This document shows positions 2,634 to 61,179 of a stretch of DNA of 64,000 nt, piece by piece; the first letter of the stretch is position 1, and every line of letters starts with the position of its first letter. The position numbers and the translations under genes are program-made. The notes under the pieces are model-generated. The model was not told where the DNA came from. It made no database searches and saw only the letters and a list, made by a program, of their open reading frames with translations. This DNA is from Chaetoceros tenuissimus (lineage: Eukaryota > Bacillariophyta > Thalassiosirophyceae > Chaetocerotales > Chaetocerotaceae): contig BLLK01000077.1 in assembly GCA_021927905.1 (NCBI GenBank), positions 1 through 64,000 of the forward strand. The letters run 5' to 3'.

Positions 2634-2651
2634 GAGGTTGGGGTCAATGAA

Positions 2652-21600: not shown

Positions 21601-24341
21601 ATCCTTTTTCCAATATTCTTTTACAGTGGAAATGGACCTTGCTCTCTCGAGTATAATACAGAAGAATGCGGTTTCGATGGTGGGGACTGCACAGACTTAA
21701 ATACTTTCAAATCAAAGTATCCAGATTGCAATAATGATGAACTTCAAGGTGAAGGAGGAATATACATATTGTTCTTGATTGGTGGAATGTAAGTTTTCTT
21801 TCCAAATACTTTCACTGTTCTTACTCCTTCATTTCTCAAGTTGTCTTATATCTCTTATTTCTCATTACCTTCTACAGCGGAAATGGACAATGTTTTCTTG
21901 AGTACAATACAGAAGAATGCGGTTTTGATGGCGGCGACTGCTTAGAGTTTAATGATTTTAAAACAAATTATCCGGACTGCAATAGAGATGGACTCCTCCA
22001 GGATGAGGAGGATAAACTCGATTTCTTTTTGGAGGGCGAAATGTGAGTAAATCAATTGATTGATCTCTTATACTGAAGACTTTTGCTAACCGTTCCTTTG
22101 CTAGCGGGAATGGACTCTGTTCTCTGGAGTACAATACAGAAGAATGCGGTTTCGATGGTGGGGACTGCACGGACTTTAATACTTTCAAAACAAAGTATCC
22201 GGATTGCTATAGAGATGAACTCCTCCAGGATGACGAGGATAAATTCATGCTGTTTTGGGGTGTGATGTAAGTACAGTTCATATACTTCTTTCATATGTTT
22301 TGACTACTTACTCTGAAGGCTTTCTTTCTAATCAATATTTACCGCTCCGTTCTCAAGTGGAAATGATTGGTGCTCGCCTAAGTATAATACGGAACAATGC
22401 GGTTTCGATGGTGGAGATTGTATTGACTTCAACAGGAAGTATCCTGATTGTGAAGTGGAATTCCCTTCACTTCTTGGGAATGACTTTTGTAATGGTGGCC
22501 TGTATGATACTGCTGAATGTGGATGGGACGATGGGGACTGTTACGAGAGGATAGATTTTCGAAATGAACATCCAAAGTGTGTTGTTGAAAGACCTGAATT
22601 GCTCGGAGATGGTATTTGTCATGGTGGCACTTACAATACCCCTGATTGTGCATACGACGACGGCGATTGTAATGCATTCAATGCTATTTATCCAAATTGC
22701 TCTGTAGAGTTTCCCGAACTTGTTGGAGATGGGCTGTGTTTATATGGTGATTATGACACTGAAGAATGCGGGTGGGATGGTGGAGATTGCTTACTGGAAT
22801 ATGATAGTGATTACAAGTATCCTTCATCTGTGCCTACTATCAGTGACCATCCTTCGTCTTCTATTTCACCTTCACTGATGTTGAATCCTTCTGCAACATA
22901 TCGTAATTGTAATGCTCCTATTCAGTCTTGGATAGGAGATGGCGTTTGTAATGGCGACATCTATAATACTGTAGAATGCGGCTGGGACGGGGGAGATTGC
23001 TTAGACTTTAATGAAAAGTATCCAGACTGTACAATTGACCTACCTCACTTGATTGGGAATGGCGAGTGCAATGGTGGACAGTTCAACACTGAAACTTGTG
23101 GTTGGGACGGAGGAGACTGCATAGAATTCAATAAAAAGTATCCAAATTGTAGTGCACCCAAACCCTGGAAGGTCGGAAATGGCAAATGCAACAATAATAT
23201 CAAAAATTACAACAACAAAGATTGCGGTTGGGATGGAGGAGACTGTTTAAATATGGTTGATAGCTATCCTGATTGCTTTGTTCCTAATCCTTCACAGATC
23301 AAAGATGGGATCTGTGATGCAGGATTATATAACGCCGAGGAATGCGGATGGGACGGTGGAGATTGCTTAGAGTTTAATACCAAGTATCCTAATTGCACGG
23401 TTGATACCCCTAAATTGATTGGAAACGGCTTGTGCAACATTGGAGGAGGATACAACACTGAATCTTGCGGTTGGGACGGCGGTGACTGTATTGAGTTTAA
23501 TAAATATCCTGATTGTTTGGTGAATAATCCTGAAAGAGTTGGGGATGGTGACTGTCATCAAGGACCATATAATACTGTAGAATGCGGCTGGGACGGGGGA
23601 GATTGCTTAGACTTTAATGAAAAGTATCCAGACTGTACAATTGACCTACCTCACTTGCTTGGGAATGGCGAGTGTAATGGCGGAAGATATAACTCAACTG
23701 AATGTGGTTGGGATGGAGGGGATTGCTTAGATTTTGATACCCAGTATCCAAATTGTACTGTTTCAATTAAAACTTGGATCGGCGATGGTATTTGTAATGG
23801 TGGCAATTATAATTCATTGGAATGTGGTTGGGACGGAGGAGATTGTGTAGTTGAAGGTTATCCTGACTGCCATGTTGCAAATCCAAACGCTATTGGAAGT
23901 GGTACTTGTTCGGGAGGTGACTACAATACAGAAGAATGTGGTTGGGACGGAGGAGATTGCGATGACGAAAATCAGGAGTTGTGGAAAACTTTTCCACAAT
24001 GCAATAAAGGCGTCGCTCCGAGTAAACTCGGAAATGGTATTTGTGATGGTGCTAAATACAACACGACAGAGTGTGGATGGGACAATGGAGATTGCCTCAT
24101 TGAAGATTATGCGAATTGTCTCGTAGATAATCTTAGCTTGATAGGAAACGGTATTTGTGAGGGAGGACCATATAATGTAGAGGAATGTGGATGGGATGGT
24201 GGTGATTGTATCGAATTCAATTTAAAGTACCCTAACTGTATTGTGCCGAAACCTTGGAAAATTGGCAATGGATTGTGTAATAACCCACCAAAATATAACA
24301 GAACAGAATGTGGATGGGACGGAGGTGATTGCTTAAAATAG
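18659..24341 (+). CDS. Large membrane protein with about 28 Lin-12/Notch repeats (LNR), seven exons
   Basis: Exons: 18659-20502, 20571-21312, 21380-21544, 21627-21788, 21878-22042, 22105-22266 and 22358-24341. All six introns are phase 2 with GTRAGY donors. The product is about 1740 residues. The N-terminal 230 residues are acidic and probably cytosolic, with a short coiled coil near 40-75. About five hydrophobic segments lie at residues 225-500. The rest is a chain of about 28 LNR modules of the form G[DN]GxCxxxxYNxxxCGWDGGDC, separated by YP-containing linkers (YPxC), with one Ser/Pro-rich spacer near 22790-22900. LNR modules bind calcium and are held by disulfides, so this part should face outside or into the lumen. 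Around 21187 the frame needs a one-base shift to continue; total exon length confirms one surplus base. That could be an assembly error, a young lesion or a truncating allele. The start is the ATG at 18659 in ACCAATG context. Confidence 0.75.
21380..22266 (+). repeat. Four tandemly duplicated LNR exons with their introns
   Basis: Exons of 165, 162, 165 and 162 bp, each 2-2 phase symmetric, encode one LNR module plus an acidic tail. Exons 21380-21544, 21878-22042 and 22105-22266 are nearly identical at the DNA level over long stretches (for example TTCGATGGTGGGGACTG), while their introns differ. Symmetric phase makes any copy number frame-neutral, so the array can grow or shrink freely. Confidence 0.8.
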
Positions 24342-28745: not shown

Positions 28746-29058
28746 GTTTTAGTGAAATAAAAATAGAACAAATGTACACATATATTTTTCAGGTTTGTAG
28801 TAACTATTAGATCTAAAGTAAGATAGTTGATATGGTCATATCGGCATCGATCTCTTGGAATAGTTTTGCGTTCATTTCATTCTCTTGTTTCACCCAAATG
28901 GAATTTTGATCGAAGGGTAGAAAAGAGACGTCATTGTTTCTCTATTTTAGACGCATGTCAAAGTCGTAGAAATGTCAACACCAAACATCAAGAAAACTTT
29001 TTTCCCACATAAAAAAGAAGCAAATATATGGTCTGACAAACTACAATCTATCAAGAAT
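28746..29058. promoter_or_regulatory. Upstream region of F-box gene A
   Basis: Holds GACGTCATTG at 28927-28936, whose reverse complement CAATGACGTC shares the CAATGACGT core of the box found upstream of the three sister genes, here in the opposite orientation. An in-frame ATG at 28972 exists but is not supported by the paralogue A', whose protein begins at the equivalent of 29059. Confidence 0.4.
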
Positions 29059-30180
29059 ATGGCCCCACTGACAAGAGGTAAACGAAAACAAGGTGAACGC
29101 CAGGGAAGAATTGAACTGTTGAGGCCAAAGAGAAAAGACCCAGAACGAATTATTCGCAGAAAGAACAAACTCAAGAAAACCAAGCTTCTGAAGGAACGAG
29201 AAGCCTCTACCTATGAGCCATTCAACTTGCTTTCGATAGAGTTGATACAATACATTCTATCTTTCGTAGGTATAGGTCACTACGTGTTTCTTGCATCTGT
29301 TAGTCAGGAGTTTCGTGCTACTTTGACTTCTATATCTGGAAATGATTTCAAGACAGAGCCTTCTTCTTATATTCATTCTTGGAAGCTTATTCGTTGGATT
29401 ATGAAGGTACCTAAGAACTCTCCTAATTTTATGAGACCAACCTACAAAAGCATAATGTTCCATGCAATGAAATACGATAGTTTGAATGCATTTATATATG
29501 TTCGTGTAACAAAACGTCGAATCAGACCTGGTATTGACTGGAAATCATTTGATGCAGTGACAGCTATAAAACACAGTGCCATAAAAATATTGAAATGGCT
29601 CATTGAAGAACAATATTGGGACTATAGTTCACATAAGGAGCAGATCCTGAAGGTATCGACGTCATGTAATCTTGAGATGATTACTTATCTACATGAACAT
29701 TTGAAGATTGAGTTTGACATAACGTCATTATCCAAAATGATTCTAGAAACGTCTTGTTGCAAGGAAGCTATTCGATATGTCTTAGGTATAGTGCCGAGTA
29801 TGACGGCATTAGAACACTGTCGAGTTTTGCATAATGCGCTTCTCAAAGAAAATAATGATGTTGCAAAAATGCTATGTGAAGAGCTACATGACCCAGATAT
29901 GGTAGTGTATGGAGTGCAATCTTGTTGCAGAGAAGAAAGAGGAATAAATCTTGTAAAATCTATCATCAATACTGAAATTGCAGACCAAATGGATGGAGAG
30001 ACTTACATGCGTGTCATACTGGAGGCATGCGGAGAAGGAAGAGTGGATATTTTAAAATATTTGGAAGAAGAGGTGTGTCCTATTCCTTATTTAGACATAT
30101 TAGTACAGCATTTTGCAGATGAAGCGGATCATCGAAATATTCTAGAGTACTTGGTAGAGGTGATGAATGGAAGAGAGTAG
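29059..30180 (+). CDS. F-box/ankyrin-like protein A
   Basis: The 373-residue protein starts MAPLTRGKRKQ, has a basic, probably nuclear-localising N-terminus (KRKDPERIIRRKNKLKKTK), then an F-box-like helix pair (FNLLSIELIQYILSFVGIGHYVFLASVSQEFRA, quoted in part: LIQYILSFVGIGHYVFLASV) and a series of ankyrin-like units ending in GEGRVDILKYLEEE. In related algae such proteins are read as substrate adaptors of SCF ubiquitin ligases, the repeats picking the target. The longer start at 28972 adds 29 residues without a counterpart in paralogue A'. It pairs with gene B downstream, and the same pair recurs as A'-B'. It is intronless. Confidence 0.6.
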   Translation: MAPLTRGKRKQGERQGRIELLRPKRKDPERIIRRKNKLKKTKLLKEREASTYEPFNLLSIELIQYILSFVGIGHYVFLASVSQEFRATLTSISGNDFKTEPSSYIHSWKLIRWIMKVPKNSPNFMRPTYKSIMFHAMKYDSLNAFIYVRVTKRRIRPGIDWKSFDAVTAIKHSAIKILKWLIEEQYWDYSSHKEQILKVSTSCNLEMITYLHEHLKIEFDITSLSKMILETSCCKEAIRYVLGIVPSMTALEHCRVLHNALLKENNDVAKMLCEELHDPDMVVYGVQSCCREERGINLVKSIINTEIADQMDGETYMRVILEACGEGRVDILKYLEEEVCPIPYLDILVQHFADEADHRNILEYLVEVMNGRE

Positions 30181-31108
30181 CGAAGAAGAAGAAGCTCAAT
30201 ACTATAGTACGTTGAATTTTTAAAAAAGAACGAATGCAAACATACAAGGTTCTAGAACTTTACCTATTAGATCAACATTTTGTAAATATTTACTATCCTA
30301 TACTCTTTAGCAACGATTTTGCTCTCATGTTTGCCAGATGAGGCTTTACAAGGAAATATAGACCAAGCTCAAAAGTCGTAAGATATCTATTAGACTCTGT
30401 TACTATTGATCAACGTAGGCTTTTGAGTAGACTTGCTATCCGTTTCTAGATACAAGCAACTCTTCATAATGATTCGTGATGAGTATGTTGTTCCTTAGAA
30501 AATACGGGTATATGTTACTTCTTGAAGAAAGAAAGCGCAAATGCATACTGTGGGGTGAATAAAGCTGACAGGTTGGTTTCGTTTCATTGTCGCGTTAAAA
30601 ATTGTTGAATTGCGTGGTTGAATTGCGTGTATTGAATGCCATTCTCATGCAATGGCAGTTCAACAACTCTCTTCTAGTAAGAAAATGGAAATACATTATT
30701 TATATGCCGTTGCTTCCTAAATGTAGAATGTCTGGACTGTTTGGAATGAGCTCTTGTTTCGCTTTTTCACAACTTCTACTTCTAAAATTTTGATAATTCT
30801 GTGTCATATCTTTTTGGAATATATACTGAATAATGCTAATCATCTCGAAATCTAAATCAAAAAGAGCAAGCTATTTTAGATGTACGAAATTCATATGTGT
30901 CAACAATGATGTACAATTCCTCTTTAGTAGTCCTGGTCGCTTTTGCTTTTGCTTTTGCTTGGTGAGTTTGACAGGAGGGATCGACATATATATACATTCT
31001 CAAAGAAGCATCTCATAGGTAACAACTTCAAAGCATTTGATGACTTGAACTTAATTTCTACAGTGAGAGAAGTAATATATTCTTCTTCTCTTTTGTTCTT
31101 TCCAGAAT
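30181..31108. other. Spacer between F-box genes A and B
   Basis: AT-rich. It includes a (GCTTTT)n microsatellite at about 30939-30960, the conserved box at 30900-30925, and a polypyrimidine tract with AG right before the gene B start (TTCTTTCCAG), possibly a 5' UTR intron acceptor. The small frame at 30602-30793 is not a convincing gene. Confidence 0.5.
30900..30925 (+). promoter_or_regulatory. Conserved box upstream of F-box gene B
   Basis: 26 bases containing CAATGATGTACAATTCCTC, also present upstream of A' (33923-33948) and B' (35630-35655) with one or two changes. It lies 209 bases before the ATG. The core is TGATGT here and TGACGT in the sister copies; TGACGT is the known core of bZIP and aureochrome sites. 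Confidence 0.6.
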
Positions 31109-32254
31109 ATGGTTTATACTCGTGGTAAAAGAAAACTAGATGAAGCAGAAGGGAAAGTAGTTGTAATACGAGAAGGAGCTGTAGACCCAAACCTGCTATT
31201 TCGTGATAGACGTAAAAAATCAAAGCGTCAAAAACAAGAGGAACCTTCGACCTATAAGTTCTTTGACTTCATTTCTGCAGATTTGAAGCGTCACATTCTT
31301 TCCTTTGTACGTCAAGGTCGATATGTAATTCTTGCTTCTGTCAGTCAAGACTTTCGTGCAACTTTGAAATCTATGCCCGAAAATGATTTCAAAACCCATC
31401 CTCGTACCTATGTATGGCGCTGGAAACTTACCAAATGGATTATAAACTATCCTCCTGGTCGCCCTCAACTAGATATGATACCAAGCCCGAAGAAAACTAT
31501 TGTTCATGCTATCCAGTACGATATGCTACACGTGTTTCAAAAACTCATGAAAGCAGTCAAATGGGGGAACAGAGACTCTTCATCCTGGACAAAAGTTTAC
31601 GCAATAAAAGCCATGGAATATAATTCTATGCAAATATTCAAATGGATCATTCAAGATCAAGCTTGGGATTACAAAGCTCATAAAAATACAATTGCTTCGA
31701 ACATCACATATTGCAATCGTGACATGCTACGCTATCTTCATGATGTTTTAGAAGTTGACTTCAATGATTTCAAGGCTATTAAATCCATGATTATGAAACC
31801 AAGCGTGCGAAACGTTGATGCGATCAGATACGTTTTGGATGTAGTTCCGACCTTGACAACCCTAACACAGAGACGACGCGGGCGACTTAGTCGCCTCTGT
31901 GTTCAAAAAGAAGATATGCTTGTTTATAATATGTTACGTGAAAAGCTCCATGATCCGGAGGATGACCCTGATATTTTGGTAATAGCAATGTATGAATGTT
32001 GTCTGCACAGAAAAACAATGAACATTGTCAAATGCATCGTAGATGAAGAAGCTGTAAAGCAAATGAAGGATAAACAGTATTTACGTCTCATTGATCAGGT
32101 TGTACACTTTGGGAGATTAGACATTTTGATGTATTTGGAAGAGGAAGTTTCTCGAATTCCCAAATTACATTATTTCATGGACTTTGCTCTATTTCGTAAT
32201 CATAGAGATGTTGCAGATTATTTGGTGATGCTAGAGGATACGAGAAGAGATTAA
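31109..32254 (+). CDS. F-box/ankyrin-like protein B
   Basis: The 381-residue protein starts MVYTRGKRKLDEAEG. It has the same layout as A: a basic N-terminus, an F-box-like segment (DLKRHILSFVRQGRYVILAS) and C-terminal ankyrin-like units (VHFGRLDILMYLEEEV). It is far closer to B' (35835-36968) than to A; the central part MIPSPKKTI...MKAVKW is shared almost word for word with B'. It is intronless. Role as an adaptor of a ubiquitin ligase is inferred from architecture. Confidence 0.6.
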   Translation: MVYTRGKRKLDEAEGKVVVIREGAVDPNLLFRDRRKKSKRQKQEEPSTYKFFDFISADLKRHILSFVRQGRYVILASVSQDFRATLKSMPENDFKTHPRTYVWRWKLTKWIINYPPGRPQLDMIPSPKKTIVHAIQYDMLHVFQKLMKAVKWGNRDSSSWTKVYAIKAMEYNSMQIFKWIIQDQAWDYKAHKNTIASNITYCNRDMLRYLHDVLEVDFNDFKAIKSMIMKPSVRNVDAIRYVLDVVPTLTTLTQRRRGRLSRLCVQKEDMLVYNMLREKLHDPEDDPDILVIAMYECCLHRKTMNIVKCIVDEEAVKQMKDKQYLRLIDQVVHFGRLDILMYLEEEVSRIPKLHYFMDFALFRNHRDVADYLVMLEDTRRD

Positions 32255-32539
32255 ATGAAAAGAGATATCATAGAATCAAAATATTTCTTTCATGATTGAG
32301 GAATGTATTTTTTGTAGAGTAAAGATATACAAATAAAGAAATACAAGTCCGTCATTGTAGATATTTTCTATTTTAGCTATTTTGACAGTCTTCAACGCTC
32401 ATTTTTCGTTTTTTCTTTTCGGCGCACGACTCAACAACTTCATTTTTGTTGGTTTTTAGATCATGGATGCATCCTTCCATCAAGCTTTTGTTCATTTCTC
32501 AACACATAATTTCAATTCATTGGTTAGATCCTAGAAAAT
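32255..32539. other. Spacer between F-box gene B and the orphan gene
   Basis: AT-rich 3' UTR and promoter sequence with T-rich runs (about 32395-32425). Nothing else was seen. Confidence 0.4.
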
Positions 32540-33328
32540 ATGCATTTATCTGGTATTGTTTCATTAACAAAGCTTCATGATTTTGCAGGAATAGAAATGC
32601 ATATGCCTCGTCATGTACTCAAAGTGCCAGGAAATATTCATGTGTCTGCTGTCGAGCCTCGTCCCAGAAGCAATAGAGTTGAAGATAGGTATCTCCTTCA
32701 TAAAAAAGCAACCTTGGACGTTGTTCCCTCGAGACCAAGTAGTTTGTCTAAATCGCAAACAACACTTTCAGTAGGATGTCAACAAAATAAAGAAGTAGAG
32801 ATGATCACTTCTCTCGATTCCTCAAGAGACACATGTAGGAGACAAATTACTATTCTCAACTCAGTCAATGAACAGGACTCAAGAAAATTGAAAGAAAATA
32901 AGAAACCTAACAAAGAGCTTCAAGCAGCAGCATATAATCTCTGCGATGCAATGGAAATGAGTGATTTGACTAGAGACTTTATTGCGGGCTTCCAAAGAAC
33001 AATCAAATTCAATCGTGGAGATTTCTTGAAGATGGGTTTAAAAGCTTTTTCAAAAAGAACAATATGCACTCGACAGAGTCTAAATAAAGGATTCAGTAAG
33101 AAGAAACTGAGGCATAAAGGATTCAGTATCGAGAGATTGAGATATAATGATTTGAAACTCATGCGGAAGAATCTTACTCGTCTCTTGGCTTCTTCAAAAA
33201 GGACCATATACTCTCGGCAATGTCTGAAGGAAAGATTTAGTGCCGAGAAAGAGCTGTTATTGAAACAAAGCAAGAATGATATTACATATGGTAGTTGTGA
33301 TATTATGTCAAGAAAAGTCTTTCCTTGA
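32540..33328 (+). CDS. Orphan basic protein between the F-box pairs
   Basis: The 262-residue frame has no family I recognise. It is basic and Ser/Lys/Arg-rich. The C-terminal half carries an internal repeat: FSKRTICTRQSL near 33050 and SSKRTIYSRQCL near 33190, each followed by Lys/Glu-rich helices (KGFSKKKLRHKGFS). No membrane segment or signal peptide is seen. It sits exactly between the two duplicated F-box pairs. An acidic/basic coil suggests a nuclear or nucleic-acid-associated protein, but that is a guess. It may not be a true gene. Confidence 0.4.
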   Translation: MHLSGIVSLTKLHDFAGIEMHMPRHVLKVPGNIHVSAVEPRPRSNRVEDRYLLHKKATLDVVPSRPSSLSKSQTTLSVGCQQNKEVEMITSLDSSRDTCRRQITILNSVNEQDSRKLKENKKPNKELQAAAYNLCDAMEMSDLTRDFIAGFQRTIKFNRGDFLKMGLKAFSKRTICTRQSLNKGFSKKKLRHKGFSIERLRYNDLKLMRKNLTRLLASSKRTIYSRQCLKERFSAEKELLLKQSKNDITYGSCDIMSRKVFP

Positions 33329-34066
33329 ATGGAATGAGGAAGACGGAAGCTATGTATTTCAAAGCACGAAAGGAAACAGTATGCATCGGGTCCAGTTCTT
33401 ATATCACTGACATAGAAATATATACATGTAGCAACAACATATAGTATGATGAATAAGCAACTTAAAAAGTGCAACAAAAAATAAAATATGAGAACTCGTA
33501 CTTCCATCATACTAACATCAAGAAAATAGAGGTTTGATAAATACTCAATTTTTTTTCGATTTTGTAGCAATCTTGGTATCTTGTCAAAACATTTGAATAA
33601 GAGTATTTCTTGAAAGTTTGTGGCTCTAGAATATATTATAAAGAAAACAAAAGCGTAATGAGAAATTATGTAAAAAGAATATGTAAAAAGAATAATTACA
33701 TTCAGCTACAAAACATCGCTGCTTCTTGAATTTACTGTGCAGTTTCATTCCGCTTTTATTCTTTCTTGCAATGAGTAGAGATATTTGAATATAATAAAAA
33801 AAATTTAACCCTTGATGAACTAAATACCTCTGCGTAATCAGCTCAAAATCTCGAATTTCAACAAAGATGGAAAATTGAAAAGAGAACATCTTTTTAGACA
33901 TGCATGTCAAAAGTCATACTTGTCAACAATGACGTACAATTCCTCTTTTTTCCTATTTCCAGCCAAGCACACACACACACATGTCCATGCTTTGCTATAG
34001 CACAACAAATTATAACAAAACAAATAAACACATACAAAACAAGGACCTCTACAAACTAGTTATAGA
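33329..34066. other. Spacer upstream of F-box gene A'
   Basis: AT-rich. It contains the conserved box (33923-33948) and a short CA repeat at 33966-33980. A weak 216-codon frame on the minus strand overlaps the orphan gene and is hydrophobic low-complexity; it is not called. Confidence 0.45.
33923..33948 (+). promoter_or_regulatory. Conserved box upstream of F-box gene A'
   Basis: Contains CAATGACGTACAATTCCTC with the TGACGT core, 144 bases before the ATG. Matches the boxes before B (30900) and B' (35630). Confidence 0.62.
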
Positions 34067-35211
34067 ATGGCTCCACTAACACGAGGTAAAAGACAACAAG
34101 CCGAAGAAAACGGACTTGTAGTTCTACTGAAAAAGAGAAAAGACCCAGAACAGATTATTCGCAGTAGTAATAAACATAAGAAATTGAAGCGCCAGGAGGA
34201 AGAACAAGAAGCCTCGACCTATGAGCCCTTTACTTTCATTTCCATAGATTTGCTACAGCATATTATGTCCTTCATAGGCACTGGAAAATATATATTTCTT
34301 GCGTCAGTTAGCAAAGAGTTTCGTGCAACTTTGTTATCTATGCCTGAGAATGATTTCAAGACGGAGCCCTCTTCCTATATTCATTCCTGGAAGCTCACTC
34401 GATGGATAATGAAGGTGCCTAAGAACTCCCCTGATTATATGAGACCAGAATTTGCAAAAACATGTGTTCAGGCAGTCAAGTACGATAGTCTAAAAGTGTT
34501 TCAGAATCTTTTAAAAAGGAGCAAAATGAAACCAGGTGCAGATTGGAAATCAACCTACCATATGCATTGGCAGCTATGATGAGCAATTCTTTGAATATAT
34601 TGAAATGGATCATTGAAGAACAAGAATGGGAGTACAGTTCACATATGGAGGATATTCTTAGTTTTTCAGTAGCGTGTACTCTCAAAATGATTCAATATCT
34701 TTATGAACATGTACGTATCGAATTCAATTTGCAAGCGTTGAAGAGATTCATTCTTCATCCATGGTCAGCATGTGACGTACAAGTAGTCAGATATGTATTG
34801 GGTGTAGTACCAAGTATGTCAGCGCGACAACGCTGCAATGTTTTACAGTGTGCGCTTTACGAAGAAAATCATGAAATTGCAAAAATGTTATGTGAAGAGC
34901 TATACGATCCCGAAAATGAGCTCGATTTGGCCGTGTATGGAGTACTCTCTTGTTGCATGGAAGGAAAAGGAATAGATCTCGTTAAATGCGTCATCAATAC
35001 TGAAATTGCTGACAAAATGAATGAAAGAAAATACAATGATCTTGTTGAAAAGGCAATTGGAGAAGGAAGAGTGGATATACTAAAATATTTGGAAGAAGAA
35101 GTGCGTCCAATTCCTTATGTTGAAAGGTTAGTGCAACAATATGCAAATGATGCAAGCAATAGAGAAGTTTCAGCTTACTTGGAGCAGGTGATGAATCAAA
35201 GAGAGGGATAA
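34067..35211 (+). pseudogene. F-box/ankyrin-like protein A', interrupted by a frame shift
   Basis: Starts MAPLTRGKRQQ like gene A and follows it through the F-box-like segment (LLQHIMSFIGTGKYIFLASV) and MKPGADWKS. At about 34553-34560 the frame changes: where the sister genes have one residue between WKS and YAL, this copy has eight bases. The second half (to 35211) then continues in the new frame with the usual ankyrin-like units (GEGRVDILKYLEEEVRPIPY). Either a recent disabling indel or a sequencing error. If expressed as read, the product is 170 residues, F-box only. Closest relative is gene A at 29059. Confidence 0.6.
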
Positions 35212-35834
35212 ATGACAAGTATTTATATTGATACCTACTTCACTTTTTCGTCTTGCTTGGTCAATATTTGAAAGTCATTGAAAACTTGGAAGAGTTATTG
35301 AACAATCAATAGTTATAAAAAATAACCATGACATTTTCGTTTCATCTCCTGTTTTTAAAAGATGCGTATATGATAAGTCTATTTATTTGTATAGTGGAAA
35401 TTGCAGTTGTTGAAGTACATTTTAGAGTCAAATTCATGCCGTTTCTTTGAATGACTAGCTGCAAATATGTTCATCCCAACTTCTACATTTTAATTAGAAG
35501 AAATAAAAATTGTTTTATACATACCCTTTAGAATTCATATGCTAAAAGCATCTCGAAATCTCAATTTTGAAAAAAAAAATGAAATTGAAAACGATGAGCA
35601 GCTATTTTAGAAATGTCAATGACAAGATTTCAACAATGACGTACAATTCCTCTTTTGTACATAGCATACACACAACGATCAATCTTCTCGAAAAACCTCT
35701 TTTCATAACTCTCTCTCTCTCTATTCCTGTTGTTTCATTGCTATGGCGCTTACAACTAAGAGAAGCACCTTACAGGCAACTACTTCTAACGCATTTTATT
35801 TCTTGAACTAAATCCCTAAGAAAGGAGCAAGAAA
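35212..35834. other. Spacer between F-box genes A' and B'
   Basis: AT-rich, with the conserved box (35630-35655) and a CATCTCGAAATCT stretch shared with the spacer before gene B (30841 and 35550), evidence that the spacer was duplicated along with the genes. No further gene was seen. Confidence 0.5.
35630..35655 (+). promoter_or_regulatory. Conserved box upstream of F-box gene B'
   Basis: Contains CAATGACGTACAATTCCTC, 205 bases before the ATG, almost the same distance as for gene B (209). Confidence 0.62.
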
Positions 35835-36968
35835 ATGGTTTATACTCGTGGTAAAAGAAAACTAGATGAAGAAAATGGACATGTAGTTGTATTATCTCAA
35901 GCTATAGACCCAGAGCATCTAATGCGCTATAGACGAAAGAGATTGAAGTGCCGAAAAGAAGAGGAAACTTCGACCTATAAGTTCTTTGATTTAATTTCTG
36001 CAGATTTGAAGCGTCATATTCTTTCCTTTGTACGTCAGGGTCGATATGTGATACTTGCTTCTGTTAGTCAAGATTTCCGCGCAACTTTGACATCTATGCC
36101 CGAAAATGATTTCAAAACCCATCCTCGTACCTATATATGGCGCTGGAAACTTACCAAATGGATTATAAATTATCCTCCTGGTCGCCCTCAACTAGATATG
36201 ATACCAAGCCCGGGAAAAACTATTATTCACGCCATCCGGTACGATATGATACATGTCTTTCAAAATCTCATGAAATGCGTGAAATGGACAAGCAAACAAA
36301 ATCTAGAATGGAAAAAGGCTTATGCGCTAGCAGCAATCAAATATAGTTCTATGCAAATTCTCAAATGGATCATTCTTGATCAAGGTTGGGATTACAAAGC
36401 TCATAAAAATGCAATTGCTTCAAACATCGCATACTGCAATCATGATATGCTATGCTATCTTCATGTAGTTCTAGAAGTTGATTTCAATGATTTCAAGGCT
36501 ATTGAATCTATGATTACGAAACCAAGCATACGAAACGTTGATGCTATCAGATACGTTCTAGATGTAGTACCCAACATGACACAGAGACGACGCGGGCGAC
36601 TTACTCGCCTTTGCATTCAAAAAGAGAACATACTTGTTTTTGACATGTTATGTGAAAAGTTCTATGATCCGGAGAATGACCCTGATATTTTTGTAATAGG
36701 AGTGTATGAATGTTGTCTACATAGAAAAGCAATGAATATTGTGAAAGGGATCATCAATAAAGATACTGCAAAGAAAATGAAGAAGAAACAGTATAAACGT
36801 CTTATTCGTCAGGCTGTCCGCTTTGGAAGATTAGACATTGTAAAGTATTTGGAAGAGAAAGTTTCTCGCATTCCTCGTTTGCATCGAGTAATGCAATTTG
36901 CTCTAGATCGTAATCATAGAGATGTTGCAGATTACTTGTTGATGGTTATGGATACGAGAAGAGAATAA
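35835..36968 (+). CDS. F-box/ankyrin-like protein B'
   Basis: The 377-residue paralogue of B starts MVYTRGKRKLDEENG and is nearly identical to B through the F-box-like segment and the MIPSPGKTIIHAI stretch, diverging more in the ankyrin-like region (WTSKQNLEWKKAYALAAIK). It is intact and intronless. Together with A' it forms the second copy of a duplicated gene pair. Confidence 0.6.
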   Translation: MVYTRGKRKLDEENGHVVVLSQAIDPEHLMRYRRKRLKCRKEEETSTYKFFDLISADLKRHILSFVRQGRYVILASVSQDFRATLTSMPENDFKTHPRTYIWRWKLTKWIINYPPGRPQLDMIPSPGKTIIHAIRYDMIHVFQNLMKCVKWTSKQNLEWKKAYALAAIKYSSMQILKWIILDQGWDYKAHKNAIASNIAYCNHDMLCYLHVVLEVDFNDFKAIESMITKPSIRNVDAIRYVLDVVPNMTQRRRGRLTRLCIQKENILVFDMLCEKFYDPENDPDIFVIGVYECCLHRKAMNIVKGIINKDTAKKMKKKQYKRLIRQAVRFGRLDIVKYLEEKVSRIPRLHRVMQFALDRNHRDVADYLLMVMDTRRE

Positions 36969-41564: not shown

Positions 41565-43183
41565 ATGTCTACAAGCTTAAGAGTAATCCAAGGTGCTACC
41601 ATTGTGCGATCTATTCTCTCTTGTGTGTCTCTGATAGCTTCATCGTTTATCATGTTTATGATAAAGTTTGAACCAAAACGTGGCTTCAAAAGTCCCTACA
41701 GTAGAATTATATTTGGGTAAGGAAGCTTCATATCTGGTGCAACAATCATGTCTCTTTGTTTATTTTCATACGTACTCATTTGGTACAACCATTTCTTTTC
41801 TCTAGTCTATCAGCCTCGGATGTAGTCTTCTCTCTAGGAATGTTGCTGTCACCATTCCTGTCTCCTAGAGATACTGTACTTAGACCTGCGTTTTCAAAGG
41901 GCAATACTCAATCTTGTGAGTTTGCAGGTTATCTATTTATAATGGGTATGGCTGCTGTTCCATCATACACGCTATTCTTGACGTATTATTTTATGCGTCG
42001 TGTCAAGTACAGAGTTCTGCAAAGAGTCTTTGCATTGAAAGAAGAGAAAATATTACATGTCATCTTCATTACCCTCATATTTCTATTTCCAACTATTGCA
42101 CTTGTGCGGAAAGAGATTAATGAAAGTAATAGCGTTGGTACCATGTGCTTTATAGCTTCATCTCCTCACGACTGTGGACGTGATGGTCATCCAGACGACT
42201 GCGTCAGAGGACCAAATGCAGATATTTACGCTGGTATCTTCGGGGCTTTCGGTGGAACTGTTTTCATATGCCTATTGATAGTTTTGGGTATGTTTACTCA
42301 TCATGTGTATTCTATTGAGAAGCACTTTGCGTCGTCGACGAAGAAGGATACCACGAAGAAAGAAGATTCTTTGAAAAGCGATTCAAAGACTAAAGAACAC
42401 AATTTTATCAAGAAAAGAGAAAGTCGAGACGAAAATGTTGATTCAAACAATGCGGCAACACAATCACAAACTTCAAACCAAGAAACTGAAAGTCAAGAGT
42501 CTCAAAAAGATAATGCCGAGAACTCATCGCAAAATAATGAGGAAGAAGGGCAAATCCAGGGAAATGAGGAGAGTGAGAGCAATAAGGAGGAGAATGAAGA
42601 AAAGACATCCCTCGCTAGAAAAGCTCTAAATCAATCTTTGCTCTACATTGCGGCATTCATGTTAATATACATGCCTGGAATGGTACAAGTTATTTTTAAA
42701 ATGGCAAGGATAGACAGTGTTGCAGATTCACAGATTTTTTTGTGGTCGACAAGTTTCTTGTACCCACTCGGAGGGGTCTTCAATATATTGATTTATACTC
42801 GTCCAAAGGTTCATAAGCTGCTTGAGCAACTGCCACATATGCCTTACTTCATTGGATTATTGATTGTCATTTTATCTGGAGGTGAAGTCCCTAGCATGGC
42901 AGATTTGGGCATCATGAGAACACCTGATAGCGTCACTGAAAATTTCAAGGATAATAATAATGCTGATGACGAAGAAGAGGAGGAGATGCGCCAGCAAGCG
43001 ATGGATCAGTTGGAAGTCAACATGGAAAAGATATCAGGCTTGATGCGAATTTTTGGGCTGAATAGCTCCGATTTGTCTAGTTTTGACTCACAAGATTGGA
43101 AGAGTAGTATTGGTCCAAGCGAACTACACAAGGATGAAAGCAATTTGAATGCCCTTTCTTTTGATACAACTAGTAAAGTATAA
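41565..43183 (+). CDS. Seven-transmembrane receptor-like protein (7TM-1), two exons
   Basis: Exon 1 is 41565-41716 and exon 2 is 41806-43183; the 89-bp intron (donor GTAAGG, acceptor CTCTAG) is phase 2. The product is 509 residues. TM1 is in exon 1 (IVRSILSCVSLIASSFIMFM). TM2-TM5 follow, then a long charged cytosolic loop 3 (about 100 residues of Glu/Lys/Gln/Asn), TM6 (SLLYIAAFMLIYMPGMV) and TM7 with the signature YPLGGVFNILIYTRPKV. TM3 starts with a Cys (SCEFAGYLF) and ends YYFMRRVKY, like the other 7TM genes here. It probably couples to a heterotrimeric G protein; the ligand is unknown. The C-tail carries GLLIVILSGGEVPSM, which is conserved in the relic at 52540. Confidence 0.75.
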
Positions 43184-52927: not shown

Positions 52928-55900
52928 TTATACATCATTTCCAAATGTTTCTTCAATATAATCGAGATCATTCTGAATCACTATATCATCTCCGCTAAAA
53001 CTTACCCCTTGTGCTCTTTTCTGATGAGTAGCATCGTCATCTACGCCATTTCTTTGCTCGAGAGCAGTTTCAGTAGCCAGCTTATCATCCGATAAGCCGA
53101 AATTATGTTCCTCGTCCGTAGCATCATCATTCATGGAACTTTGCTTGAGAGTGTCAGCCGATAAACCAAAATTATGTTCGCTGGCAACACTTTTTTCGAG
53201 ATGTATGTCATTCAAATCATGAAAGCCAATACTCTCATTCTTGTTGGTGTCTTCTACATGCATCGATCTTGATTTCGAAGACGATTCATATTTGGTACTT
53301 TGTGCCATTGTGTACTTTGAAGTGGCCTTTGAGATCGCTGCATTAGAGATAGCATCTTTCCATGAAGGTTCACATCGCTGCTGCCTCAAAGTACTTTTTC
53401 TTGGGCGTGGACGGGGAGTCAAATTATTTTGTTGGTCAATGTTATCACATCCGGAAAGAATGACTCTCTTGAGAGCAGTGAAATATGAAATGTCATATTT
53501 TGCTCGAAGGCCCCTGACTCTTGGTCGAGTAAAGATCAACACATTGATAGTTCCTTGCAAAGGGCGAATGGTCCTTGACAACTGCTGTAAAGCGAAAGGG
53601 ATGCTTGAGCTCCCTGCCACTTTCATGGACTGAACTATGATTGCAGGTGTATAGCATATAAGAAAGGCAAGAGCATAGCAAGTAGCTTGGGTCAAGAAAA
53701 CTCTGGCACTGGAAGAACCATTTTCTGCAGTCCTACTTGTCCTATCCGAATTCACTCTATTAGATAACCGAACTGATACTCTTCTAATTCGCGAAAGATT
53801 CGCTCTTCTCTCTTGTCTTCGAACAGTGACATAAATGTTAAGTAAAATGAATACAGTCGCCAAAATACAGAGAATCAGAATCACTCCAAAAATAATGTTT
53901 AGAAAAGAAGCTATAGCGCCTCTTCGACAAGGTACATCTTGATCTGTTCTACATGTGAGTGGATAAGGACTAAGCCAGTATAAGCGTGTTCCATTTGGAT
54001 TCAAACTCTGGGAAGCTAATGCTGTGATCAAGAAAATAGTTGCACAGACTAAAAAAAAGAGAATATATTGAAATTGTTAGTTGAATCTTTCGATAAAATG
54101 AAAACCCGACGAAAATTCATTTTGTATCCTTACCAAATGGAATGAAATGAAGTTTTGGCTCCACTTTCTGCCTCAATTTTCTTTCTCTGTAGTTGTATTT
54201 GATGAAATAAAGGTAGTAAACTGATAGACAAACATTATACATGTGTGACGCAATCATACCTGAAAATGAGTTAGTTGGTGTTAGATCAACAAATTTTTCT
54301 CATGACGGCACCTTTTTTCGATACCCGTAATCTAAATAGAAAACTCACCAAAGATCATAATAGCAGTCAACACAACTGCAGAAGAATGATTTCCGATACT
54401 TCCCCATGGGGGTGATATAGAATCTTCTTGCCATTCCTTTGAATTTGATCGGAAAGGAGCCATCATCGTTCCGAAAGCTAATAAGATATCGTATGTTGTC
54501 ATGGCAAAAATAATTCTTCTGTATGAGTTCTTAGCAAGTATGAAAGTTACTACGATTTCGGAAACAATTGAGAATTGTGAGTTCAGAATCAGTTCAGAAA
54601 AGTTTAGAATTTTTTAAAAATAGTTCAGAATTTTTCAAAAATAGTTCAGAAAAGTTCAGAAATTTTCAGCTTCACGTACTTGCATGGTATAGATTTCCAC
54701 GTACAGCAAATCACAGTACTTGCATGGTACATTTTTCTACCTTTTTGTAAAAATGAATGATGTTTCCACCCCTGCCTTTAGCTTATGCTATTGTGTGCTG
54801 ACATATGTATGTTTTCTATCGACCTTTGGAATCGAAAATAGACTAGTAAGGTACAATATAGGAGTGATTGATTCGACGTCATTGGTTTGAATTTTTGTCT
54901 GAATTTGAAATTCGAAATGTCTCACATCGCTTGGTCTCACTCTCGGCTAAAAACAAGAAACGCAAATCAATCGATTGAATGGATCCACCTCCATGGATCC
55001 TGCTAATCAAAGAGCACAACATAGGAGTGCTCTTGGTCTAAGCAGAGAACTACAGCAAGACAGAACTGATCATCCGTCCTCACCTTCAAGAGGAGGTTCA
55101 AGAGGATACCCTCTATGGTTCCGCCTTCGGGTATTGGATGCAGTCCATACAGTTGGTGTTGAGCAGGCTTCAGAACAGTATGGAGTGAGTGCAGCTAGTA
55201 TTTATAGATGGCAAGGGCGAGTTACTCCATACAGAATGACAGGTGGAGAAGAAAGAGCTGATCTTGTTGGTTATGATCTTCTTCTCTTAGCAATCGTTGT
55301 TACAATTTTTCCGTGTGCTACTTTAGACGAAATGGCTACATTCATTCTTGCGAATGGAGGAGATGTCTACTCCAATGAGCAAATCTCTGAAAGGCTAAAG
55401 GAGCTTCAAATTACAAGAAAAAGATGCGCAAAGGAAGCATACGATGCCTTTAGTGAGAGGACACAGAGAAGAGTTCGGTGGTTCATGACATTGCCACCCC
55501 CACTCGGTGTTTACAGAGTGTTGATGCAAAGACTTATTGATATTGATGAAACAGGTTTTTATCTGAAATCTTGCTCATCAAACTATGGAAGAGGATTAAT
55601 ATGCGAAAGGGTTCGGAACCCTAGTCATTACATTAGAAATGCGCTAAGAGTGAATGTTATACTTGCAATCGAACCAGGTGATCCACGGTTGCCTGCAATT
55701 GTTGACGGTTCTATAGAGAATCCACGACGATGGATGAAAATTACTCTTCAAAATATTGATCAGCATGTTTTTGCAGACTTCCTCGATGAGACCTGTACAG
55801 ATGTAGAAAATAATCCGGTCAACAATGGTCTTGATGATGACCGCATTTTTATGTGGGACAACCTTACTGCACATAAGACAGCATTGGTTATAAACACAGT

Positions 55901-58709
55901 AGAGGGAAGGGTTTCAAATAACAACTTTCAGACAATGAATAGACCACCATATCATCCGAAACTTGCGCCAATCGAGTATGTTTTTTGTGAGCTTGCATGT
56001 GAGCTTTCGCGAAGAGCAAGACGTGATTGGGATACTGCTAGATTACAGCAAGAAATAGCCGTCATTATTGGACAGTTGGGGCGAAACGGAAAGTTTTGGA
56101 ATACATTTCGTCATTGCGGTTACCCTTTTACTTAAACTAATAGATACATAAAGTAATTATAATGATGATGATGATCCCCAGATTTATTTTACAAGTTTGG
56201 ATCGGATTTGTAAAAACCATCTACCATTTCAAGTAAATCTTCTGCACTCTGGCCACTTTTTGCATAGGAATTTGCGCATTTGAGGACGACTTCATCTGTC
56301 TCTTGAAGAATGCCCTTTCCAATACGCCCTACTCCTTGTGAAATCTTTCTCATCGATTTAGGGGAAATAGTTGCAGTGGCATGAAAGAGATGCTCATCTT
56401 CCATTTCTTTCAAGAGAGCGAATCCAGCATCGTTCTCAATGCTGACAGAACGAGATTCACCTGTCATTGGAGTCGGAACTAGAAGTGGTTCAAGACGATT
56501 TCTTCCGTGACGTCCTCCTGTGCGAGCCATATCATAGTTCAGAGTATCAGTGGGGGTTGGCGAATCAGGGTGTTGAACTCCGTATTCCAAAGGTCGATGC
56601 GCATTCGAGTTGTAAATATCGTTATCCATCTTTCTCTTCTTGTTCTTCTTCTTATTTGCTCTATGTGCTGCAATGTTCATGCCATTGAATTCGCTGGTCA
56701 AAGTCGTTTCTTTTTGAAATTCGTTTCTATTGCGAATATCATTTAGACTACTAGAATGGAAAACATCAACTGCAGTCATACTATATGCGTTTTGCTCCGC
56801 CTCTTTTTTCGAGAGATTTGAAAAGTCAATGTCAAGATTATGACGATGAGCAGCAAAGGTCAAAGCGCATTGATCTTTCAAACCGGATAGACTCATAGCT
56901 GTAAAGCAATTTGTACGTAAGCTTTGGATTAAACAAATAGAATCATTGGATAAAGCACTTACCCTTCTTCTTTTCGTTTGCTGCTGATTCCTTCTCTTGC
57001 TCTCTTGCAAGTTGAGTTTGCTCAGCAATCTTGGTAAATTCATCACCTTTGAAGAACAAGCTGCAAGTGCAATGGCAAATATCACAGGTACACTTGCATG
57101 TCTTTGTATCAATGTTTGGATTGATACTTTCCGGATCATTATCGCATTTTCTTGTGATCTCAGTTGCCTGTTTGCATTGCAAACATCCGGTTCCGTCCTG
57201 TCTTGAAAGGCAGTTTTGCATGCAACAGAGACATGCATACCTAACTGTTTCGTACTTTGGATTTTTAGGTTTCGGAATCATTCCTTTTTGTCTTTTCGAA
57301 GCACTGTTGGTTTTCTTTTTGAAATCTTTCATTTCCGCTTCAAAGGCTACTCGCTTGGCTTCGTTCTCCCTGTTGATTTCTTCCAGAGACTTCCCATGCA
57401 CAACTAGAAATGAATGTTTACATCCTGGGCATGATCTTTTAGAAAAGCGTTCCATAGCTACTTCAGTGCCTCCTTCCATCATATTTTCGAATTTGTATTC
57501 TTGAGCTTCTTGAACCAGTGGCATGCCTTGTGGCTGAGCTCCAATCTTCTTACCACTACTGCGAGCCTTTTGCCTTTGCGTATCGGTGAACGTTGCATAA
57601 TGAGCCTTGACTTCTTCGTCAACAAATTTATTGAAAACAACTACACCTGCCGGAGCTTGTTCCATGTCCTTTTCGCTTTTCGATTCAAGCATCTCGATCA
57701 ATTTGCACAGCATTCTCGCTATATCTTGCAATCCAGTTGTTTGTTTCATGGATTTGATTTGATTCACTAGTAATTCACGCATATTCTTGTCAGACACAAG
57801 AAAACTCATTGCAATCTCGTCATTTCCAACCCTCTTTAGAACTTCTTGTTTCCTAACTTTGTTGAATCCGGTCCCTTGTCCGGTCCTACCTTTCAGTGTT
57901 TCATAATACGGATGGTCCTTTGCAGGAGGCTGACGAGAACTTGATGATGGTGGTTGCTCCTGTGGAAGAGGAGGAGGAGGAACGAGTGCTGCTGCCGCTG
58001 TTGTGGAGTCGGCATTTTGGGTTGCTTCCTCTACTATCTCTTGCATAATGCCTTCACTATCAAAGTAGAAAGAATCTAGTGCATCACTCATTGTCTTTGT
58101 TTTGAATAGAGTGGTTTTCTATCGAATAGTGATTAATGAAACTAGAAACTGTTCGCAGTCATCGGCGGTCGGTGTCAAAATCAAAGAAGAACTGAGAACA
58201 GAAGGAAATAGATTTTGGATACTAGCAATAGGCACTCTATCTCAAGTTAGAGTGTCTTTATAGATGAGTTAAAATTCTGGGAGATTTATTTGGCGCAAAG
58301 GTACGGGAAAATCTATACCATGCAAGTACGTGAAACTGAAAATTTCTGAACTTTTCTGAACTATTTTTGAAAAATTCTGAACTATTTTTAAAAAATTCTA
58401 AACTTTTCTGAACTGATTCTGAACTCACAATTCTCAATTGTTTCCGAAATCGTAGTAGAAAGAAAGTTAACATGAAACTTGTAAGAGAAGAAGCCTGGTG
58501 TATCTATTCTATATGGCACTATATCAGCTCCCCGAAAGAACAAGATTCTTGTAGCTACCTCGGCCGTCTTTTCGTACCTTCAATTTTGTTTTAGATTTCA
58601 ACATTGTAACACATATTGTGATGCCAACAAGAAATGATATGAAAGCAGATACAGAAGGAACAATAATTACTGCTCTTTCTCTAGCAATATTTCGATTAAG
58701 CTCTACCAT
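52928..58709 (-). CDS. Seven-transmembrane receptor-like protein (7TM-2), four exons, transposon in intron 1
   Basis: On the minus strand: exon 1 58709-58578 (TM1, SVSAFISFLVGITICVTML), exon 2 54529-54349 (TM2, start of TM3), exon 3 54259-54134, exon 4 54048-52928. Total 1560 bases, 519 residues, frame intact throughout. Intron 1 (54530-58577, donor GTACGA, acceptor TGCTAAG) is 4048 bp because it contains the DDE transposon at 54550-58455; without it and one TA it would be 140 bp. TM3 ends in YYLYFIKYNYRERK, TM7 has RPLQGTINVLIFTRPRV, the signatures shared with the other receptors here. The C-tail is long, Ser/Asn-rich and contains a repeat EEHNFGLSDDK/SEHNFGLSADT. If splicing copes with the insert, the gene can still work. 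Confidence 0.72.
54550..54706 (+). repeat. Left terminal inverted repeat with GTTCAGAA subrepeats
   Basis: Starts CTACGATTTCGGAAACAAT. Carries at least five GTTCAGAA or TTCAGAA units within 54580-54670. Matches 58299-58455 in reverse complement. A second CAGTACTTGCATGGTAC copy lies just inside, near 54714-54730. Confidence 0.82.
54993..56135 (+). CDS. DDE transposase of the IS630/Tc1-mariner superfamily
   Basis: About 380 residues from the ATG at 54993. An N-terminal homeodomain-like helix-turn-helix (FRLRVLDAVHTVGVEQASEQ, YGVSAASIYRWQ) would bind the inverted repeats. The catalytic acids are visible: Asp185 in IDETGF, Asp289 in MWDNLTAHK and Glu328 in KLAPIEYVF. Thirty-eight residues separate the last two, longer than the 34 of Tc1. 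The PPYHPKLAPIE string is the family's PxxSPxLNPIE box. The frame looks complete, so the copy may be active. Confidence 0.85.
   Translation: MDPANQRAQHRSALGLSRELQQDRTDHPSSPSRGGSRGYPLWFRLRVLDAVHTVGVEQASEQYGVSAASIYRWQGRVTPYRMTGGEERADLVGYDLLLLAIVVTIFPCATLDEMATFILANGGDVYSNEQISERLKELQITRKRCAKEAYDAFSERTQRRVRWFMTLPPPLGVYRVLMQRLIDIDETGFYLKSCSSNYGRGLICERVRNPSHYIRNALRVNVILAIEPGDPRLPAIVDGSIENPRRWMKITLQNIDQHVFADFLDETCTDVENNPVNNGLDDDRIFMWDNLTAHKTALVINTVEGRVSNNNFQTMNRPPYHPKLAPIEYVFCELACELSRRARRDWDTARLQQEIAVIIGQLGRNGKFWNTFRHCGYPFT
56189..58091 (-). CDS. Cys-rich passenger protein of the DDE transposon, two exons
   Basis: On the minus strand, exon 1 is 58091-56963 and exon 2 is 56898-56189; the 64-bp intron (donor GTAAGT, acceptor TTTACAG) is phase 1, giving 612 residues. 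The N-terminus is acidic and Pro/Ser-rich. The middle has SCPGCKHSF and then a dense cluster, YACLCCMQNCLSRQDGTGCL, CKQ, and CKCTCDICHCTCSLFF, a likely multi-zinc or disulfide module near residues 285-350. Exon 2 adds a basic stretch (NKKKNKKRKMDND) that looks like a nuclear signal. I recognise no family. As it lies between the inverted repeats and is convergent with the transposase it belongs to the transposon. It could be a DNA-binding accessory, a regulator or captured host cargo. Confidence 0.7.
58299..58455 (-). repeat. Right terminal inverted repeat of the DDE transposon
   Basis: Reverse complement of the left arm (54550-54706), ending at the TA 58456-58457. The match is nearly perfect for about 140 bases and then fades. 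Confidence 0.82.
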
Positions 58710-59889: not shown

Positions 59890-61179
59890 TCAATATGGAC
59901 TAGAAAACACCGATCTTTGATTCTCGACAGAGTTACCTGGATCTTGAAAAAAATTCTTCAAGATATTTTCATCGACACTTTCAGTTTCGCGTATAGAATG
60001 TTGCACCGAGAGATCTTTACTTTTGAGACCGTTTTCACTTTCCTCCGCACTTATTTCCTTACTTGGAAGACTTGGTAAACTCGTAAATTCCAAACCTCCT
60101 ACATCCATGTTTTCATTATTGTACTCTTGTAGCGCGGATATGAAACGCCGAAATGTTTTGTCATGTTGAATTATCTCAAGATTATCAACAAATTCATGGT
60201 TATCGTCAACTTCCCAAGGCTTTAATACAGATATTTTGAGTGCTGTCGTTGATGTTGATTGATTGAGTTTCTTGTGAGCATAAACCTTGTGATATAAGAA
60301 AATGAATAGATGAAAAAAACCTTGCATTGGAAAGAAGAATAAAGTGAGCGCATTCAGGATTCTATTGTCTTGAACAAAAACATGAAGACATGGAAAGATC
60401 CATGTTAAAATGCATGCGCATATATACATGAATGCTTGCCAAGCAAGATTTGTTGTGTCAGAATGAAGCTGAGGTCTTGATAATTCAGCTTCGGCTACTT
60501 CAATGTGTTTCCTTGCAGATTGGACAATGAGAAACATTGTAACGCATAAAACTAGAAATTGCAAAGAAGCAAATCCAGTATTGAAATATTCATAAACAAA
60601 CCAAGCAGTGCTTGTGGAATCGTCCAGCTCAGCAACTATACATTCTTCATCTTGTTCTTCTGTTGACAAGAGGCATTCTTGAGGATAAAAGGGATCTATC
60701 ATACAAAATGTAAAGTATGGAGTAGGATTGAAAATTCCATTGAATGCGTAGTAAATTGGCTGGAAAAGCGTAAGCGGTATCGCAGTCAGTAGAAATATAG
60801 GTTCAGCTCGAAGTCTAAATTTAGCATTGGAGACATTGTATCGGATAGTGCAAAGATAGTAGACATTCAACATAATGTTTGACAACAGGACAAGACCTAG
60901 GCTAAACAGAATGATGGATGCTTGTGCCTGACAGGTCCTTGTTGTTCCATAGCTAGGACTCGCAAAGTCATATTCTACATCTTTTGGCATAGGTATCGTA
61001 GTAAGTGCCATAGCTACAGAAGCAATTGAATCCCAAAAGCTCATGAAGAACATGATGCGATGATAAGGTGTGTTTTGTTTCGATCGCAGAATAATGATCA
61101 TAATTAGACATGAAGATATGAAAGAGAGAGAACCACTGACAGAAGTCAAAGCTGTCCCAGCTCCTGTAAATGCAATCAT
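59890..61179 (-). CDS. Seven-transmembrane receptor-like protein (7TM-3), intronless
   Basis: The 429-residue protein has seven TM segments: TM1 SGSLSFISSCLIMIIIL, TM2 RIMFFMSFWDSIASVAMAL, TM3 SIILFSLGLVLLSNIMLNVY (starting after a Cys in RTCQAQA), TM4 IFLLTAIPLTLFQPIYYAF, TM5 GFASLQFLVLCVTMFLIV, TM6 AFMYICACILTWIFPCLHV and TM7 with FFFPMQGFFHLFIFLYHKV. TM3 ends YYLCTIRYNVS, as in 7TM-1 and 7TM-2. The C-tail is acidic and Ser-rich. Unlike its neighbours it has no introns; a short exon further upstream cannot be excluded, but the frame already contains TM1. Ligand unknown. Confidence 0.72.
   Translation of the reverse strand: MIAFTGAGTALTSVSGSLSFISSCLIMIIILRSKQNTPYHRIMFFMSFWDSIASVAMALTTIPMPKDVEYDFASPSYGTTRTCQAQASIILFSLGLVLLSNIMLNVYYLCTIRYNVSNAKFRLRAEPIFLLTAIPLTLFQPIYYAFNGIFNPTPYFTFCMIDPFYPQECLLSTEEQDEECIVAELDDSTSTAWFVYEYFNTGFASLQFLVLCVTMFLIVQSARKHIEVAEAELSRPQLHSDTTNLAWQAFMYICACILTWIFPCLHVFVQDNRILNALTLFFFPMQGFFHLFIFLYHKVYAHKKLNQSTSTTALKISVLKPWEVDDNHEFVDNLEIIQHDKTFRRFISALQEYNNENMDVGGLEFTSLPSLPSKEISAEESENGLKSKDLSVQHSIRETESVDENILKNFFQDPGNSVENQRSVFSSPY

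Follow-up and report, generated by a model that had tools for sequence, protein, structure and literature searches.

In the window, which is the whole 64,000-nucleotide stretch of the Chaetoceros tenuissimus contig BLLK01000077.1 analysed here, positions 54550-58455 are occupied by a structurally complete transposon of the IS630/Tc1-mariner type, which is probably autonomous and would move by cut and paste. Without its flanking TAs, the element measures 3,906 bp, and it carries a second gene placed tail-to-tail with the transposase gene. I regard the chances as evenly balanced that this transposon is autonomous and encodes a nuclear, probably zinc-binding protein of its own, which would act on the ends of the element via an array of short motifs.

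The earlier note had described almost identical 155-bp inverted repeats and TA bases bracketing this locus, and the coordinates proved to be exact. The left terminal inverted repeat (54548-54704 on the forward strand, with TA at 54548-54549) pairs with the right one (58301-58457 on the reverse strand, with TA at 58456-58457), and they are identical at 154 of 157 positions when the TA is counted in. The three mismatches are confined to the inner quarter of the repeat, at positions 123, 150, and 152 when counted from its outer end. With up to three mismatches allowed, the outer 23 bases have only these two sites in the window; over 100 shuffles, the mean number of sites was 0. TA borders the element on both sides, and the flanks make a working intron when one TA is kept, while a single insertion cannot tell a duplicated TA target from a TA that is the end of the element. 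No convincing match to a second copy of the element DNA or of its proteins was found in the window, where the self-matches are short or weak (best E 0.53 for DNA and 0.14 for protein). Two exact patterns of the repeats had no match in viral contigs. The element had also been called young. The intact genes and the clean insertion only suggest that it is recent, and the claim is weakened because the identity of inverted repeats is no clock for cut-and-paste elements.

The element seems to reside in an intron of a receptor-like host gene on the reverse strand (54530-58577). Joining the flanks with one TA yields a 140-nt intron having GT and AG ends, and the reading frame is kept. The intron acceptor is 20 nt from the element, TA included. 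The protein of the joined flanks resembles, by eye, the start of a multi-helix receptor when compared with the ORF at 59890-61179, for which a Pfam scan gave no match. Thus, should transcription run through the element, the host gene may be able to remove it by splicing.

Other features of the window were noted in passing. Receptor-like multi-helix ORFs are recognizable by eye at 41756-43183 (with Pfam matches below cut-off only), 52928-54031, and 59890-61179; one of these genes, with exons on both sides, is the one that seems to be interrupted by the element in an intron. Three successive long ORFs at 474-7710, the second reverse-transcriptase-like and the third recombinase-like by eye, suggest a DIRS-like retroelement; no Pfam match to these ORFs passed the cut-offs. 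The region 22455-24341 encodes a protein with LNR (Notch) domains in repeated form, for which Pfam gave 10 stretches at 2.2e-51. Tandem similar ORFs at 28972, 31109, 34067, and 35835 (28972-36968, by eye) have a basic N-terminus and a common stretch ending in LASVS, and look like a local gene family.

The transposase gene lies on the forward strand (54993-56135, with the ATG at 54993 and the stop codon ending at 56135) and encodes 380 amino acids. Its codon-usage score is positive in the proposed frame only. The assignment to the IS630/Tc1-mariner type was upheld by a DDE_3 match of 5.9e-11, which is above the family cut-off, and by the catalytic acids D185, D289, and E328 (numbered from the ATG). 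The NCBIfam IS630 model matches residues 55-348 at 1.3e-16 with 61 bits, where the cut-off of the model is 100. A search of plasmid proteins returned 22 of 72,556 records, all below 60% identity and several annotated as IS630. The identity is 26-31% to three plasmid relatives and 19-28% to 17 others. With a profile, nine loci with relatives of the transposase were found in viral contigs (GC 0.55-0.70), and 80 loci were kept of at least 103 confirmed relatives in genome contigs; by their labels, 79 of these 80 are from bacteria and one is from a methanogenic archaeon. The transposase alone had no match among phages, no match among PDB sequences at E up to 1, and four pattern matches in viral contigs, none of which was confirmed. 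Another profile comprised 18 sequences, including 17 relatives from prokaryotes or viral contigs; its match to Sleeping Beauty has an E-value of 1e-11, and its matches to SETMAR and Mos1 are weak. A structure model of the transposase has a mean pLDDT of 58.3, a low-to-medium confidence. Its top Foldseek match is Mos1 (E 1.7e-4), which I take as no more than supporting since the TM-scores are only 0.18-0.20.

The second and third catalytic acids are separated by 38 residues, so the DD34E arrangement of Tc1 proper is not present, as the earlier note had remarked. Forty related ORFs from 98 collected loci were aligned. In all 38 scorable ones, 34 residues separate the second D from the E, whereas the remaining two do not align at these acids; some of the ORFs share one genome, so the 38 are not independent lineages. 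The spacing of 38 against 34 in every scored relative thus amounts to an insertion of four residues in the present transposase when it is compared with them.

The second gene is convergent with the transposase gene. Its exon 1 (56963-58091, reverse strand) contains the cysteine cluster, its exon 2 (56189-56898, reverse strand) contains the basic stretch KKKNKKRK at residues 459-466, and between them is a putative 64-nt GT-AG intron (56899-56962, reverse strand; GTAAGT...TTTACAG). The two exons together give a protein of 612 amino acids. Under the limits that were set, 41 GT-AG choices would retain a protein of more than 560 amino acids, and five of them exceed 612. Thus, the exact intron rests on its splice consensus, which is the best among the 30 listed of the 41 choices. 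Codon-usage scores of both exons are positive in the proposed frame only, with 20 unverified window ORFs outside the element used for the training. A spurious open frame or a decayed relic is very improbable here: such a frame would agree with the lack of a convincing homologue in the collections searched, but not with 612 stop-free codons across a consensus intron, nor with two coding-like exons and clustered cysteines. The convergent, apparently spliced gene for a cysteine-rich protein of 612 residues with a basic stretch, which had been read from the sequence, stood.

As for the protein itself, 15 of its 18 cysteines fall within residues 221-343, where the motifs are CPGC, CLCC, CLQC, and CKCTCDICHCTC. 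Thirteen cysteines lie in one 75-residue stretch, a density that was reached by none of 10,000 permutations. Patterns of C2H2, RING, PHD, and zinc-knuckle types are absent from the protein. Pfam matched the whole protein at E up to 10 only with a chance-level DUF (E 2.1), and the exons gave chance-level matches only with NCBIfam (0.049) and PHROGs (0.22). Exon 1 had no match in phages, plasmids, or PDB sequences. In viral contigs, the second protein or its pieces gave 7, 11, and 3 pattern matches, with none confirmed, and among the 98 collected loci no match had an E-value of 1 or below. These collections cover prokaryotes and viruses, and absence from them says little about algae. A single-sequence structure model of residues 62-376 was poor (mean pLDDT 41.5). 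Since no relative was found and the model is poor, the putative functions, namely binding of zinc and of DNA and entry into the nucleus, are guessed from the composition.

Does the second gene belong to the element? The non-coding gaps, from repeat to gene to gene to repeat, are 288 bp, 53 bp, and 209 bp, and the 5′ end of each gene points to a repeat. Such compact gaps leave little room for captured flanking DNA. One copy was seen, so the membership of the second gene is judged from this layout: tail-to-tail genes 53 bp apart and 209-288 bp inside the repeats have the look of one integrated unit with two genes, not of an element with cargo. The main rival is that a one-gene element of the IS630 type took up the second gene from the host on a single occasion, as cargo; I consider this unlikely, though well above negligible. 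The single copy and the apparent spliceosomal intron agree with a capture, and a lone gene is described as usual in Tc1/mariner elements (PMC7731502, in excerpt). The exon scores (0.22 and 0.23) are also inside the range of the 8 host ORFs listed out of 20, which were themselves used for the training and are no independent control, and the GC3 of 0.37 is inside the range of all 20. However, the transposase score also falls in the host range, so composition does not discriminate. The 53 bp between the genes and the 209 bp from the ATG to the repeat leave little host debris, which speaks against a capture.

The element has a further trait in its ends. Each repeat contains a phased array of the motif AGTTYAGAA (54580-54662 on the forward strand in the left repeat; the same array at 58343-58425 on the reverse strand in the right repeat). 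In the left repeat, six clear units start at 54580, 54591, 54601, 54622, 54643, and 54653. Their steps of 11, 10, 21, 21, and 10 bp place the units in phase with the DNA helix. In each repeat, the array comprises approximately eight 10-bp units with the consensus AGTTCAGAAA (68% matches), and it can alternatively be read as approximately four 21-bp units. On either strand, the motif AGTTYAGAA is found neither in the interior of the element nor anywhere else in the window outside the repeats. When the repeat was shuffled 1,000 times with its dinucleotides preserved, six units were never reached, a statistic chosen post hoc; by a cruder count, some 8-mer occurred five times or more, five being the observed number, in 12 of 2,000 shuffles. 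Another short sequence, the 14-mer GTACTTGCATGGTA, occurs twice on the forward strand in 54676-54729 (at 54676 inside the inner end of the left repeat and at 54716 just beyond it) and a third time in the right repeat at 58329 on the reverse strand. It has no other site in the window.

Binding of the repeats and cut-and-paste transposition at TA are established for the superfamily. Because its relatives act in this manner, the transposase would bind the repeats, cut there, and join the ends at TA. The second protein, if nuclear and metal-binding, may recognize the AGTTYAGAA array in the ends of the element. It could then be a partner in assembling the transposition complex, a regulator, or an anti-silencing factor. 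It is also quite conceivable, although I would not favour it, that the array is the binding site of the transposase itself and that the second protein acts elsewhere, in chromatin or regulation. This alternative overlaps with the best explanation in everything but the target of the second protein. The N-terminus of the transposase may be helix-turn-helix-like (HTH_Tnp_IS630 at E 0.002, with 18.6 bits where the cut-off is 21.3), and the bacterial relative ISY100 binds its repeats via such a domain and requires no protein beyond its transposase for excision, according to an excerpt of the source (PMC2170065). In my judgement, on the other hand, approximately eight 10-bp units are many for the site of one transposase.

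The earlier note held that elements of this group code for the transposase alone. That is the usual case, but extra genes in IS630/Tc1-mariner elements have already been published, as in TBE, Tec, Sardine, Thon, Anchois, and the mariners with Fanzor1. The bacterial IS630 insertion sequences share the transposase family over nearly the whole length, while the spacing is 34 in all 38 scored relatives instead of 38. In contrast to them, the present element has long repeats, a second gene, and a eukaryotic host. TBE of Oxytricha and Tec of Euplotes are Tc1/mariner elements with extra genes (PMC7325037, in part). They are likened to the present element by description alone and are ciliate elements with three ORFs and DD34E. 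A Pfam zinc finger or kinase was not found in the second protein at E up to 10, a search that divergent members could escape. Sardine, Thon, and Anchois of Paramecium combine an IS630/Tc1-type transposase with hypothetical ORFs, and Anchois is 3.6 kb in length with 3 ORFs, whereas Sardine and Thon differ in having DD35E and a tyrosine recombinase (excerpt of PMC3464196). These are also ciliate elements, and their ORFs are set beside the second protein by description alone.

TA-flanked mariners with Fanzor1 as an extra protein are described, for example, in Pythium, a stramenopile, and in an algal virus (PMC3627910, excerpted text). The second protein was rejected as a Fanzor1 protein; the arrangement D-X(125,275)-[TS][TS]-X-X-C4 finger-X(5,50)-RD is absent under both a strict and a relaxed pattern. 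Harbinger elements of Ectocarpus have two tail-to-tail genes (PMC12477816, in part), and thus the gene plan matches, but the transposase superfamily differs from the IS630 type found here. The same excerpt reports that a mariner transposase of Ectocarpus itself gained a cysteine-type EsV-1-7 domain. For this domain, the second protein had no Pfam match. A single ORF is described for Luffy, a mariner of a haptophyte (PMC10138859, in excerpt).

Two further systems resemble single traits of the element. Intruder (DD38E) of animals has the same spacing of 38 as the present transposase, to which it is likened by description alone, and repeats of 100-272 bp. It is, however, 1.5-1.7 kb in length with one ORF, as opposed to 3.9 kb and two genes here (PMC7731502, excerpt). 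The VANC proteins of Arabidopsis are encoded by the elements themselves, and their targets often form tandem repeats (part of PMC5735166). Tandem short motifs in its own non-coding DNA are what the present element has in common with VANC, an analogy of mechanism only.

A two-gene IS630-type element in diatoms was not found among the listed titles and abstract openings of open-licence papers, which is not proof of absence. I tentatively consider, at somewhat less than an even chance, that there is a stable two-gene IS630-type lineage in stramenopile algae and that the second gene represents a new cysteine-rich accessory family recognizing the array. If the second gene were captured cargo, the locus would be a case of ordinary gene capture. 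If the pair recurs, it would add a lineage of IS630/Tc1-mariner elements that encode a helper protein themselves, one that differs in kind from the extra genes published so far; the array would be a visible candidate binding site for studying the role of the helper.
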